DNA of 64,000 bases from Bdellovibrionales bacterium (lineage in GTDB: Bacteria > Bdellovibrionota > Bdellovibrionia > Bdellovibrionales > Bdellovibrionaceae): the NCBI GenBank assembly GCA_005793345.1, contig SXSU01000084.1:1-64000 (forward strand), given 5' to 3'. Each line of letters starts with the position of its first letter. Positions within the stretch are counted from its first letter, which is position 1. Of this stretch, positions 58,654-63,363 are shown one piece after another. The notes under the pieces were generated by a model. That model searched no databases. It saw nothing but the letters and a program-made list of their open reading frames with translations, and was not told the DNA's origin. The translations under genes were made by a program, and so were the position numbers.

Positions 58654-60351
58654 ATGAAATTTTTGTATACCTTAGTAAATAAAATAAATTTAAATGTCGA
58701 TTCAGATTATAAAAATAAAAAAGATTTCTTAATTTATATAACTTCATTAACCACCTTATTAACTTGTTCAATTCAATCATTTGCTAAGGTTGATGGGCCC
58801 ACAATACGATATCTGCAAGTTGAAAAAGATGTTCAATCACTGCTTAGTTCAGCTAGTGGAGGAGGTGAACAAATTAAGGTAAAAATCTCACGTTCTATTG
58901 AAACTTGGAGAGCATATGATCCTAAATTGGACCCAGAATCTCCTCTCTTTGATAAAAAACTTTATGAAGAAAATAAAGACGTAATTCCTAAAATTAATCA
59001 AAATTTTTTAATTGTCGGATTTCAGTCTTCTAAAAAGGATCGATCGATTGTTGATAGAATCCCATCTATTAATAATGTAAGATTGAGTTGTGAACTTTAT
59101 GATAAAAATCCAACTGATAATAATGATAAAGCTTCTGAAAACGATGTTGGAGTATCTTCAATATCTGCAGATGATCAGGCAATTAAAGCAGAGAGTACTA
59201 CTCTTAAGTTAGATGAGATTCAGTACAATGTTTTTAGTGAAAAAGAAATTTATGATAATTATAAGGGATATAAATCGTCAATCGTATTAAAATTCATGAG
59301 TGATAAGGATTTATATAAATCAAAAGATGAGAAAGAAGCGATGGAGCAAAGCTTACTTTATTGGGATACACATCAAAATATTCCAACTTATCGATATGTA
59401 GTTACTCCTGTTGATAATCCTGAAAATAAAGAATTTATTGGTGAATCGCAAGAGCAGTCACTTGAAAAATGTAAAACATATTTAGAAACATTTTTATTTG
59501 ATATGCATTCTTATACAAATTATAATGATTATAAAGATCCTATTAGTATTTATATTACTCCCCGTAAATTAAAAAACAATCGAGATTTAGATCTAAAAAT
59601 GCAAGATGAAGCTTATGATTATTTATCTATAAATAATAAAGAAATAACTTCTGTAACTAAATTAAGTTTAGATAATAAAATTAAATATTACACTTTGGAA
59701 TCAACTGGTGTCGACAATAAGCGCCATCAAAATGTACATGTTTCATGTGATGTGGAAAAACGAAGTTCAACAAAAAATGTATTATCACCTGAAATAGATG
59801 ATTTGGGTCGAGTTAATTTTGAATTTACAGATAATACTATTTTAAATGGAGTACCAAAAAAACTCGGCAAATTAAGACAAGTATATACAACAAAAGATGG
59901 AGAAGATAGCTCGCGAATTTTGAATTATTTAGATTATGAGTCAGTTAATGGTTCATCTAAATCTGCAGATAGCTTTGAAACTAAAGTTTTCCAGGTGTAT
60001 AATACAACGGATGATGATAAAGTTGAAGCACTTGGATCAGGCAGTGTTGCAAATCCTGTATCGTTTCCAAATTATATTATAGTTCTAAAATTTAATCGGG
60101 TTAATCGTGAATTTAAGGTTTCTGTTATGAACTTTTCTAAAAATTATTTATGGTTTAAAACATTAAATATAAAAAAAGATTATCCTTCATTGCAGAATTT
60201 ACTGCAGAGTTTTGAAGGACAAGCTTTAATATCACATTTAAAACAAATTATCCAAAATCAGTTTATGTCCGATGAAACAATTTATTTTTCTAAGTGTGAG
60301 GCAAACAAAAAGATTGAAAAAAGTCTCTTTGAAGAATGGCTTGGGCTTTGA
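58654..60351 (+). CDS. Secreted protein of unknown function
   Basis: 565 residues. TGGAG lies 7 nt before the ATG. An N-terminal signal is interrupted by a longer basic stretch (FLYTLVNKINLNVDSDYKNK), then a hydrophobic run FLIYITSLTTLLTCSIQSFA that ends in a cleavage-like site. The mature part is large, acidic and mostly beta, with three Cys and segments such as RYVVTPVDNPENKEFIGESQ and FEFTDNTILNGVPKKL. No family recognised. Its 3' end overlaps the convergent aroKDE gene by 62 bp. It carries the same upstream 24-bp element as the secreted gene at 14511. Confidence 0.8.
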   Translation: MKFLYTLVNKINLNVDSDYKNKKDFLIYITSLTTLLTCSIQSFAKVDGPTIRYLQVEKDVQSLLSSASGGGEQIKVKISRSIETWRAYDPKLDPESPLFDKKLYEENKDVIPKINQNFLIVGFQSSKKDRSIVDRIPSINNVRLSCELYDKNPTDNNDKASENDVGVSSISADDQAIKAESTTLKLDEIQYNVFSEKEIYDNYKGYKSSIVLKFMSDKDLYKSKDEKEAMEQSLLYWDTHQNIPTYRYVVTPVDNPENKEFIGESQEQSLEKCKTYLETFLFDMHSYTNYNDYKDPISIYITPRKLKNNRDLDLKMQDEAYDYLSINNKEITSVTKLSLDNKIKYYTLESTGVDNKRHQNVHVSCDVEKRSSTKNVLSPEIDDLGRVNFEFTDNTILNGVPKKLGKLRQVYTTKDGEDSSRILNYLDYESVNGSSKSADSFETKVFQVYNTTDDDKVEALGSGSVANPVSFPNYIIVLKFNRVNREFKVSVMNFSKNYLWFKTLNIKKDYPSLQNLLQSFEGQALISHLKQIIQNQFMSDETIYFSKCEANKKIEKSLFEEWLGL

Positions 60352-62173
60352 ACATTGATAATCCTGAATAATAACTACATCCTTTAGTTTGGGCTATCCA
60401 TAGCCCATCAGAGTCTTCTTTGTAATTTAAGTCAATCACCATTTTTAATTTCCAATTATTTGGAATTGGAAGTTTGTTGTTTTTATCGACTAAATTTGGA
60501 GCTGCCCATACTAAAATTTCTGGATCAAAATCAATAGATATATTTTTAGTGTCTCTTGGTAAACCAGTTTGAGCAGAATAAAAAATTGCCTTGGGTAATA
60601 AATCATAAAGTAAAGGGAGTGTACCCCCACCACCCCAGACTGCAATCTTTGGTGAAGATAATTTTTCAAGTGGAGCAAATAGGTTTTTTAAACCATCTAT
60701 ATCTGTATTATGACCAAACCAAACACTTGACTCATCTTTTTTACAAATTGTATTAGTTGATTTGTATTTTTTAGCAATATCACTGTTGTTTTCGCCACAG
60801 TAATTAAATGCTTTTAATTTAAGGGGTGAGGTGATAGCTGCAGCCTTTAGGCCTAACTTACTTAATACTTCCATTGCTGTTTCAAATTCATTTTCACTGC
60901 AGTCTATGGCATAAACAGGCCATGGAGCAAAAAAACTTTCTTGCTCTATAGGAGTATGACTGTGTTGTACAGGTGAACCAAGAATTGCGGCAAAGGAAGT
61001 CACAAATTTATCATTTTTAATCCATTGTGATAATGAAGGTTGATCAAGTGCGGAGCCCTCATAACCTTCCTTAAAGAATTGGAGCATCATTTTACCTTTA
61101 GCCATAAGTCTGTACCAATTCCATTTTCCATTTGATGATCGAGGTAAAAAACTTCGCTTTAAAGGCATTTCCTGTTGCCAAAGATGACATGTATACAATT
61201 CTTTGAAATCAATTATTTCGACTGCTAATTTAATATGAAATCCAAGATCTTGAAAGCGTTGTAATTTGTTAAATACAGATTCCAAGTTTTCATCCTTAGC
61301 TCGATCATGACAAGATATTATATTAATTTTATCTTGATTGTATTTGTTAAAAAGTGAAATATCACAATCGACTAAATAATTAATTTGATAATTATTTTTT
61401 ATTAGTTCAACAGGGAATTCAATATCTCCTTTTCTTAGTGAATAAATCATGGAGTATCCATTATTACTCAAATCCTTAAAAATTGTTGGATAATATTTAT
61501 GATCAATTAGATCATCTCGGACTTCTAAAAAATCTAAGCCCCAACTTTTATGTTTATTAACAAAGTAATTCCATTTATTTAAATTTGCATTACCATTCTC
61601 ATTTCCATTTTTGTCATCAAATAAACTTGGCAGAATGGTAAGAATACCTTTGCAATTGTGTATGGTATTAAAAAGTATTTCCTCTTCAGTCGGACAACTT
61701 TGATTTAAGCCTTCGGGAATTAAATATTCATCCCAAAACTTTTCTTTAAACATTTGCGATCTTTTTTGAGCTCTCAATTGAAACTCTTTAATTGGATGTA
61801 GTTCGGGTTCAAGTCTTGGTCTGTCTAAAAAAATTCGTCCCCATTGGTCACTCAAACGTTGAATCCATAAAACTCGATGTTCAGAATTCAAAAGTTCTAA
61901 ATTAAAGCCGCCTCCAACAGAAATAAAACAAAAACTTTTATTATTGCAGTTGTTTTTAATTTCTTGAATGAGCTCTAAAAAGTATTTTTTTTCTAAATCC
62001 CTAAAAAATTTTTCGCCTGATTTTGCAAAAATATCATTAATTTTCAAATTAGATTTTTCTTCAATCCGTTGATCTAAATCATATACAAAACAGTTTTTAC
62101 TTTTATAATTTTTAATCCGATTAAGTAGGGATGTCTTACCGACCCCTCTTTGTCCAACAATAATTGTGATCAT
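60290..62173 (-). CDS. Trifunctional shikimate kinase / 3-dehydroquinate dehydratase (type I) / shikimate dehydrogenase fusion
   Basis: Three consecutive shikimate pathway domains in one 627-residue chain. SK (about 1-170): Walker A GQRGVGKTS, YDLDQRIEE, SVGGGF and LDRPRL. DHQase I (about 175-390): IISCHDRAKDENLESVFNKL with the conserved His, HIKLAVEI with the Schiff-base Lys, and FLPRSSNGKW. A short Asn/Gly/Glu insert (NGNENGNANL) lies near residue 195. SDH (about 395-620): GSPVQHSHTPIEQ, AAITSPLKLKAF with the catalytic Lys, STNTI and HNTDIDGL; the NADP loop is GGGGTLP. The ATG overlaps the aroA stop (ATGA). SK-DHQase-SDH after EPSPS is the domain order of the eukaryotic AROM protein. Activities are inferred from motifs; SDH has HTP rather than the usual HSxSP. 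Confidence 0.9.
   Translation of the reverse strand: MITIIVGQRGVGKTSLLNRIKNYKSKNCFVYDLDQRIEEKSNLKINDIFAKSGEKFFRDLEKKYFLELIQEIKNNCNNKSFCFISVGGGFNLELLNSEHRVLWIQRLSDQWGRIFLDRPRLEPELHPIKEFQLRAQKRSQMFKEKFWDEYLIPEGLNQSCPTEEEILFNTIHNCKGILTILPSLFDDKNGNENGNANLNKWNYFVNKHKSWGLDFLEVRDDLIDHKYYPTIFKDLSNNGYSMIYSLRKGDIEFPVELIKNNYQINYLVDCDISLFNKYNQDKINIISCHDRAKDENLESVFNKLQRFQDLGFHIKLAVEIIDFKELYTCHLWQQEMPLKRSFLPRSSNGKWNWYRLMAKGKMMLQFFKEGYEGSALDQPSLSQWIKNDKFVTSFAAILGSPVQHSHTPIEQESFFAPWPVYAIDCSENEFETAMEVLSKLGLKAAAITSPLKLKAFNYCGENNSDIAKKYKSTNTICKKDESSVWFGHNTDIDGLKNLFAPLEKLSSPKIAVWGGGGTLPLLYDLLPKAIFYSAQTGLPRDTKNISIDFDPEILVWAAPNLVDKNNKLPIPNNWKLKMVIDLNYKEDSDGLWIAQTKGCSYYSGLSMFKAQAILQRDFFQSFCLPHT
61585..61612 (-). 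repeat. Short Asn/Gly/Glu-coding microsatellite
   Basis: Degenerate hexamer tract (ATTACCATTCTCATTTCCAT on the plus strand) that encodes NGNENGNAN inside the DHQase part of the fusion gene. A similar hexamer tract lies in the 21866 gene. Confidence 0.6.
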
Positions 62174-63363
62174 AAAAACTCAGCAGCAATTTTTAAAAAT
62201 TCTGGGAAACTTTTATTTACAGAATGGGTATTTATTATTTGAATCTTATGTCCCAATGATTTCAAAACTGCACCCATCATAACTAATCGATGATCATCTT
62301 TAGCGTCAAGAATTATAGGATTTGTTAAATTAATTTTACTAGGAGGAGTAATATTAATTTTTGCTCCATCTTCAAGAGCTTCGCAGTGTATTCCTAACGG
62401 AGTTAATATTTTAATTACTTCGGCAATTCGATCAGACTCTTTAAATCGCAAGTGGGGAGCACCATAAAAATGGGAGCATCCATTAGCAGAAGAAGCGATA
62501 GCGCATAAAACAGGAAATAAATCTGGCGATTCTTTTAAATTAACTGAAATTGATTTGAGTGATGAAAGTGGTTTTTTTATAACTAAATTTGATCCCATTT
62601 TTTCACATTCCACACCCATGTTTTTTAACAATTCTATAAAAACTAAATCCGGCTGAGAAGAATCAAAAGGAAAACTCTCTAAACATGCAGATCCATCTAT
62701 TGCGGCAAGTGCTGCAACAGCAAATGCTGAACTAAGATCACTTTCTACTTGAAAACTTAAAGTTTCAGGAACTTGATGGGGTTCAATGACTATGATTTTT
62801 TTTTCAAGGTTGACATCTGAATGATAACCAAAAGATTTCATAAGTTTTAATGTTAAATTGAAGTATGATTCAGAGACCATTTCTTGACTTGAAATTTCTA
62901 TTTGAAGTTTTTGTGGTAAATTCCAAGAGCTAAGTACCACTCCACTTAAAAATTGACTGCTATCTTTAGCGCTTACTTTTAGGGGAGTTGATGGAATCTG
63001 CCAACCGCTACTTGTTATTAACATGGCATCTTCAGTAAATGAACTTTCAACTCCTAATTGATTTAAAATTAATTGAAGTTCTTTTTGTGGTCTTTTGAAT
63101 AATCTACTTTTTCCGGTTAACTTGAAAGTTCCTTTCTCACGTGAAACTCTCAATGCTAAAAATCTTAATACCGTTCCAGCTTCACCACAATCAAATTCAG
63201 TTTGATTGTGAATTAAATTAGAAATGGCCGCTTTCATTTTTTGGATGTCGTCACATTCGGCTTCACCTTTAAGCTCAATTGATTTATTAAATGATTTAAT
63301 GATTAGTGCTCGATTAAAACTAGATTTCGATGCAGGAATTACCCCGCGAAATTTGAAACTCAT
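62170..63363 (-). CDS. aroA: 3-phosphoshikimate 1-carboxyvinyltransferase (EPSP synthase)
   Basis: Transfers enolpyruvyl from PEP to shikimate 3-phosphate. 397 residues, slightly short for the family (about 420-430). Motifs: PASKSSFNRALII (the KS-R substrate loop), FDCGEAGTVLRFLALR (usually GNAGT; Glu replaces Asn), the LFKRPQ loop (usually RPM), SAKDSSQFLSGVVLSS, and the PEP loop LRFKESDRIAEV. The C-terminal DDHRLVMMGAVL is typical. The stop overlaps the ATG of the AroK-AroD-AroE fusion by 4 bp, so the two are translated from one message. A triple hairpin repeat lies 15 bp upstream of the start. Confidence 0.93.
   Translation of the reverse strand: MSFKFRGVIPASKSSFNRALIIKSFNKSIELKGEAECDDIQKMKAAISNLIHNQTEFDCGEAGTVLRFLALRVSREKGTFKLTGKSRLFKRPQKELQLILNQLGVESSFTEDAMLITSSGWQIPSTPLKVSAKDSSQFLSGVVLSSWNLPQKLQIEISSQEMVSESYFNLTLKLMKSFGYHSDVNLEKKIIVIEPHQVPETLSFQVESDLSSAFAVAALAAIDGSACLESFPFDSSQPDLVFIELLKNMGVECEKMGSNLVIKKPLSSLKSISVNLKESPDLFPVLCAIASSANGCSHFYGAPHLRFKESDRIAEVIKILTPLGIHCEALEDGAKINITPPSKINLTNPIILDAKDDHRLVMMGAVLKSLGHKIQIINTHSVNKSFPEFLKIAAEFL

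Follow-up and report, generated by a model that had tools for sequence, protein, structure and literature searches.

AROM is the textbook metabolic mega-enzyme of eukaryotes, with five domains that are not in pathway order, and we know of no explanation for this order. The arrangement of its domains (DHQS-EPSPS-SK-DHQase-SDH) and its dimer have been described (PMC6851490). For prokaryotes, a systematic search reported in the CASP15 target paper of the AROM structure group gave bifunctional exceptions, among them the clostridial DHQD-SK protein (CASP15 T1180; PMC10792529). Other fusions of shikimate-pathway enzymes include the plant DQD/SDH (2GPT, 2O7S), the bacterial DHQD/SDH of NCBIfam NF006802, and the bacterial SK-DHQS proteins of NF010556 and NF010627. 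We found no description of a bacterial SK-DHQase-SDH or EPSPS-SK-DHQase-SDH fusion in the open-access literature (subscription journals and database annotations were outside the scope of this search), where the prokaryotic fusions are bifunctional only; the first-pass annotation of the DNA described here was right to call a three-domain fusion unusual for a bacterium.

The window, a 64,000-nucleotide stretch of DNA from a Bdellovibrionales bacterium, contains on its minus strand aroA (62,170-63,363), encoding an EPSP synthase of 397 aa (Pfam EPSP_synthase E 2.6e-50; NCBIfam aroA 2.1e-70), and aroKDE (60,290-62,173), encoding a putative trifunctional SK-DHQase-SDH fusion of 627 aa that is defined by its open reading frame, by Pfam and NCBIfam profiles, and by an AF2 whole-chain model (pLDDT 93.8, pTM 0.92). 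As the first-pass annotation had claimed, the aroA stop overlaps the start of the fusion gene: the junction (TTTTTATGATCAC) contains a 4-nt ATGA (62,170-62,173, minus strand, read directly from the sequence), and the identical overlap is present in 24 relatives. Judging from this arrangement, translation of aroA and aroKDE is probably coupled. The 3′ end of aroKDE overlaps, tail to tail, a convergent ORF on the plus strand (58,654-60,351) by 62 nt (60,290-60,351), according to the ORF list. The aroKDE frame is open and has been kept in more than 60 relatives, in which the key residues are mostly invariant; this conservation is far beyond chance, and the ORF is real.

The two outer domains of AroKDE are recognised by profile libraries. 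The shikimate kinase domain (residues 1-168; 61,670-62,173, minus strand; Pfam SKI E 2.4e-11) has an above-cut-off Pfam/NCBIfam match spanning residues 9-113 and contains all of the features of AroK, i.e. the Walker A motif and the equivalents of Asp34, Arg58, the lid Arg, and Arg136, with K13, D34, R58, and R138 present in 58 of 58 relatives and R118 in 57. The shikimate dehydrogenase domain (residues 393-622; 60,308-60,997, minus strand; Pfam Shikimate_dh_N E 4.8e-8, and NCBIfam aroE), with a Pfam/NCBIfam match over residues 395-518, likewise contains the AroE features (equivalents of Lys65, Asn86, Asp102, and Gln244, and the NADP-binding glycine loop). Its candidate active-site residues are S405/T407, T448, K452, N474, D491, and Q611; K452, N474, D491, and Q611 occur in all 58 relatives, and G515 and G517 in 55-56 of them. 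This domain scores 65 bits as a bacterial aroE and 37 bits as Shik-DH-AROM among the NCBIfam profiles.

The middle of the protein had been read as a type I dehydroquinate dehydratase, an assignment that needed proof because no library model covers it: DHquinase_I (Pfam PF01487) falls below its gathering threshold in AroKDE, and some 220 residues are unmatched by Pfam and NCBIfam models. We assign to residues 172-392 (60,998-61,660, minus strand) a divergent domain of this type on the basis of hhalign, a search of PDB profiles, AF2 and Foldseek, and conservation. An alignment of 60 middle-domain sequences matched a profile of nine genuine AroD proteins with an hhalign E of 1e-5 over 163 columns, pairing (E. 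coli residue second) E217/E46, R219/R48, R247/R82, D269/D114, H289/H143, K315/K170, R355/R213, and Q378/Q236, to which D221/D50 and S374/S232 can be added as further correspondences. When the middle-domain profile was compared with all PDB sequences, the two best matches were DHQases (2ocz, E 2.4e-4; 2egz, E 0.055). The AF2 model of the domain (pLDDT 93) adopts the AroD-type (beta/alpha)8 barrel, and in Foldseek each of its 26 best matches (E from 1.5e-6) is a type I DHQase or a fusion containing one. E217, H289, K315, R355, and Q378 show no variation among the 58 relatives. Sequence and model therefore both identify the middle domain as a real, very divergent type I DHQase, and the failure of PF01487 reflects the sensitivity of the model and not a peculiarity of the structure. 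The presence of SK, type I DHQase, and SDH in one gene, as first annotated, is borne out by profiles, by AlphaFold and Foldseek, and by active-site residues, and the motifs that had been read as functional (Walker A, K315 and H289 of the DHQase, and K452 and the NTD motif, with D491, of the SDH) all hold.

The closest described systems each share part of this architecture. Like plant DQD/SDH and the NF006802 proteins, AroKDE has DHQase followed by SDH, but it carries an additional N-terminal SK and is only about 19% identical to them; against NF006802 it scores 31 bits, compared with a cut-off of 598 bits. The predicted relative placement of DHQase and SDH is similar to that in the plant enzyme (TM 0.67, target-normalised, over ~507 columns). 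The clostridial DHQD-SK protein is also a prokaryotic fusion of SK and type I DHQase, but its domains are in the opposite order and it has no SDH. The SK-DHQS proteins are likewise multifunctional shikimate enzymes led by an SK, but there the partner is DHQS, and AroKDE matches their models weakly and through its SK part only.

The first-pass annotation had called for a search for the same fusion in related genomes. In a set of 59 genomes related to that of the window, the fusion occurs across the family and the order. Of 142 genomes sampled across the phylum Bdellovibrionota, 40 carry a full-length fusion, counted as a match spanning the profile with E < 1e-110. Bdellovibrio bacteriovorus strain kdesi (L047) and Bdellovibrio sp. 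qaytius (L065) are among the named bacteria that have it. Of the apparent carriers outside the phylum, L046 (titled Streptomyces griseus) and L041 (titled Deltaproteobacteria) are misnamed MAGs that match the same-family genomes G019 and G025. Sequences titled Planctomycetota (L057) and Proteobacteria (L079) sit among those of Bdellovibrionota in the KDE tree.

Possession of the fusion and possession of a type II DHQase (aroQ) exclude each other. In the phylum sample aroQ is found in 52 of 142 genomes, none of them among the 40 with the fusion and all among the 102 without it (Fisher 2e-10, a value that is overstated because the counted genomes are related). At least three families (f1; f8, which belongs to the window's order; and f16) show a switch between the fusion and aroQ. 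No type II DHQase was found in 19 further genomes reached via fusion-carrying loci, and the four aroQ genomes in the set of relatives (G009, G042, G048, and G053) all lack a full fusion. Ordinary type I DHQase is, in the phylum sample, confined to family f11, where the fusion is absent. From this exclusivity it follows that the divergent domain very probably supplies the DHQase step, and the pattern, drawn from genome sequences, is the strongest available sign of its function. The window's own genome has a single SDH, inside AroKDE, and single copies of aroB and aroC, which lie on other contigs; Pfam profile searches for a separate or better DHQase, of type I or II, found none in this assembly, which lacks about 17% of the genome. 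A weak second SK-like match (23.7 bits) lies at a contig edge of the same genome (G000:C81:220-555, L166) and may be either an SK that is redundant or a different small P-loop kinase. At three loci without the KDE fusion (L145, L146, and L140, from f8 in the window's order and from f16), an EPSPS of a distinct, Acinetobacter-like clade is found together with aroQ, which suggests replacement of the whole cluster. In G039 and G043, genomes of the window's order with high completeness, the fusion, SK, SDH, and aroQ were all not found; loss of the shikimate pathway is possible there.

The order EPSPS-SK-DHQase-SDH is, as noted at first, that of the last four domains of AROM, and the relatives make the parallel stronger than was seen then. 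Among named loci with enough flanking sequence, 41 of 47 have aroB no more than 300 nt upstream of aroA, 52 of 68 have aroA next to aroKDE, and 47 of 59 have aroC no more than 300 nt after aroKDE. The common arrangement is thus aroB-aroA-aroKDE-aroC, which presents the full AROM order in separate, usually overlapping genes; in the window's genome aroA and aroKDE alone are still together. Moreover, six genomes have aroA and aroKDE joined in one reading frame, which yields a four-domain EPSPS-SK-DHQase-SDH protein (L013/L016, L073/L101, and L080/L141; that of L101 is cut off by the contig end). On the KDE tree these proteins fall into three pairs, apart from one another and each with good support, and three changes are needed, either three gains or fewer gains together with losses. 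No five-domain protein was found among the loci examined, aroB being a separate gene wherever it was seen. An apparent pentafunctional protein at L080 (a 1366-aa frame) was rejected, since the first 340 residues come from sequence that is open by chance, with aroB just upstream in another frame.

Fusions of other kinds also occur among Bdellovibrionota. Another trifunctional architecture, DHQase-SDH-EPSPS (867-912 aa), is encoded in other families (L137:3150-5771, L138:3405-6140, and L142:3167-5767; G138, G183, and G167); the gene that follows encodes SK, and the DHQase part is below the Pfam cut-off. Bifunctional SDH-SK fusions of about 485-500 aa are likewise found in other families (L143:2355-3809 and L140:2358-3860), the L143 cluster being in pathway order (aroB-aroD-aroEK-aroA-aroC), and at L139:2706-4898 a GFO/IDH/MocA oxidoreductase is fused with a shikimate dehydrogenase (730 aa). 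The phylum thus fuses the shikimate pathway repeatedly and in several orders, which makes a chance match with the AROM order more believable. The naive probability of 1 in 120 for a given five-gene order overstates the surprise, because adjacency of D and E is common and several orders could match.

Overall, the best explanation, and in our judgement a very likely one, is that AroKDE is a working trifunctional enzyme whose AROM-like order and fusion are convergent. It is barely credible, and already largely refuted, that assembly errors or frameshifts gave rise to the four-domain proteins or to the fusion as such. Many of the records are MAGs, and such errors do occur: an apparent KDE-AroC fusion at L085 proved to be an artefact of N runs, and long frames at L017 and L051 were chance open frames in GC-rich DNA, with aroA in another frame. 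Against this, complete genomes, those of B. bacteriovorus (L047) and G006 among them, carry the KDE fusion, and each four-domain clade is represented by two different genomes, with the L013 and L016 proteins (968 and 975 aa) 67% identical and carrying all four domains in frame. It is also quite improbable that the middle domain is an inactive, degenerate DHQase retained as a scaffold, leaving the protein effectively bifunctional. Pfam is blind to the domain, and no conserved Glu is present in the alignment of 58 relatives at the equivalent of E86 (E. coli numbering), the partner of the DHQase His, although E86 is a supporting residue outside the catalytic pair. There is also a precedent in Candida albicans Aro1, the DHQase domain of which has active-site substitutions and is dead, with a type II enzyme compensating (PMC9074039). 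In the fusion genomes, however, no such type II enzyme, nor any other DHQase of either type, was found, whereas fusion-less genomes often have aroQ, and the equivalents of the Schiff-base Lys, the general-base His, Glu46, Arg213, and Gln236 are invariant.

The first-pass annotation left it between a bacterial cousin or precursor of AROM and an independent convergence, to be judged by phylogenies of the domains. For AROM we used sequences from PDB alignments (6HQV, 7TBU, and 7U5S), which supplied two fungal AROM proteins. The EPSPS tree unites the Bdellovibrionota in a single clade (100/99) and groups AROM with Streptomyces, plant, and beta- and gamma-proteobacterial EPSPS (96/91); forcing AROM and Bdellovibrionota together costs 25 log-likelihood units and is rejected (AU p 0.0066). 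The DHQS tree also places AROM with other bacteria, apart from Bdellovibrionota (95/94), but here the forced union is not rejected (AU p 0.32). Consistent with the placement in the DHQS tree, Bdellovibrio AroB matches bacterial DHQS in the PDB at 124-99 bits and AROM DHQS at 85-75 bits. AROM (Aro1; 6HQV, 7U5S, and 7TBV) shares with the Bdellovibrionota proteins the EPSPS-SK-DHQase-SDH order and a type I DHQase and, with aroB upstream in relatives, the full five-member order. The bacterial chain differs in lacking DHQS, in having an EPSPS that is usually a separate overlapping gene and lies outside the AROM clade, in its extremely divergent DHQase, and in its predicted domain arrangement; of the five domains of AROM, three are present in AroKDE and at most four in relatives.

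Shared ancestry, in which AROM came from a bacterium with such an operon or both came from one ancient cluster, is consequently unlikely. It would account for the exact B-A-K-D-E order of the operon and the A-K-D-E order of the fused proteins, and the DHQS tree is compatible with it. AROM chains are also the top matches in whole-chain Foldseek and HMMER searches, mainly because they alone hold all of the domains, and the Foldseek superposition is poor (TM 0.27-0.30, rmsd ~19 A): the predicted DHQase-SDH packing is plant-like and unlike that of AROM. The EPSPS result, the weaker match of AroB to AROM, and the other fusion orders within the phylum weigh against it as well. Slightly less probable still is a specific form of this idea, that one ancient bacterial aroB-aroA-aroK-aroD-aroE cluster was ancestral to AROM and to this operon, with Bdellovibrionota keeping the intermediates (operon, three-domain, and four-domain proteins); replacement of the EPSPS of one side at a later time would explain the disagreement of the EPSPS tree. 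Independent convergence, by comparison, fits both the EPSPS tree and the differently ordered shikimate fusions of the same phylum. Taken together, the parts that were tested (EPSPS, the placement of DHQS, and predicted packing) point to convergence, and most likely the fusion is functional, AROM-like, and arose independently of AROM.

As a convergent trifunctional enzyme, AroKDE would catalyse steps 3 (DHQase), 4 (SDH), and 5 (SK) of the shikimate pathway, and would be translated together with the EPSP synthase of step 6 from the overlapping gene pair. Among the genes detected in the bacterium it is the sole DHQase and SDH, and it would be the main SK. In the DHQase barrel, Lys315 would form the Schiff base and His289 would act as the general base. 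The model predicts for the DHQase and SDH domains a packing like that of plant DQD/SDH, with the kinase attached N-terminally, from which dehydroshikimate made at one site may be released near the other and so be channelled. In three clades aroA is joined to aroKDE as well, and an indel spanning the ATGA overlap is the probable cause.

These findings close an annotation gap, in that profile libraries detect no dehydroquinate dehydratase in the genomes that carry the fusion. The Bdellovibrionota show the AROM order at graded stages, as an overlapping operon, as a three-domain fusion, and, in three separate clades, as a four-domain fusion. The presence of these stages in one bacterial phylum allows constraints on assembly to be tested against history as the source of the AROM order, in a lineage that includes the cultivable and genetically tractable predator Bdellovibrio bacteriovorus.
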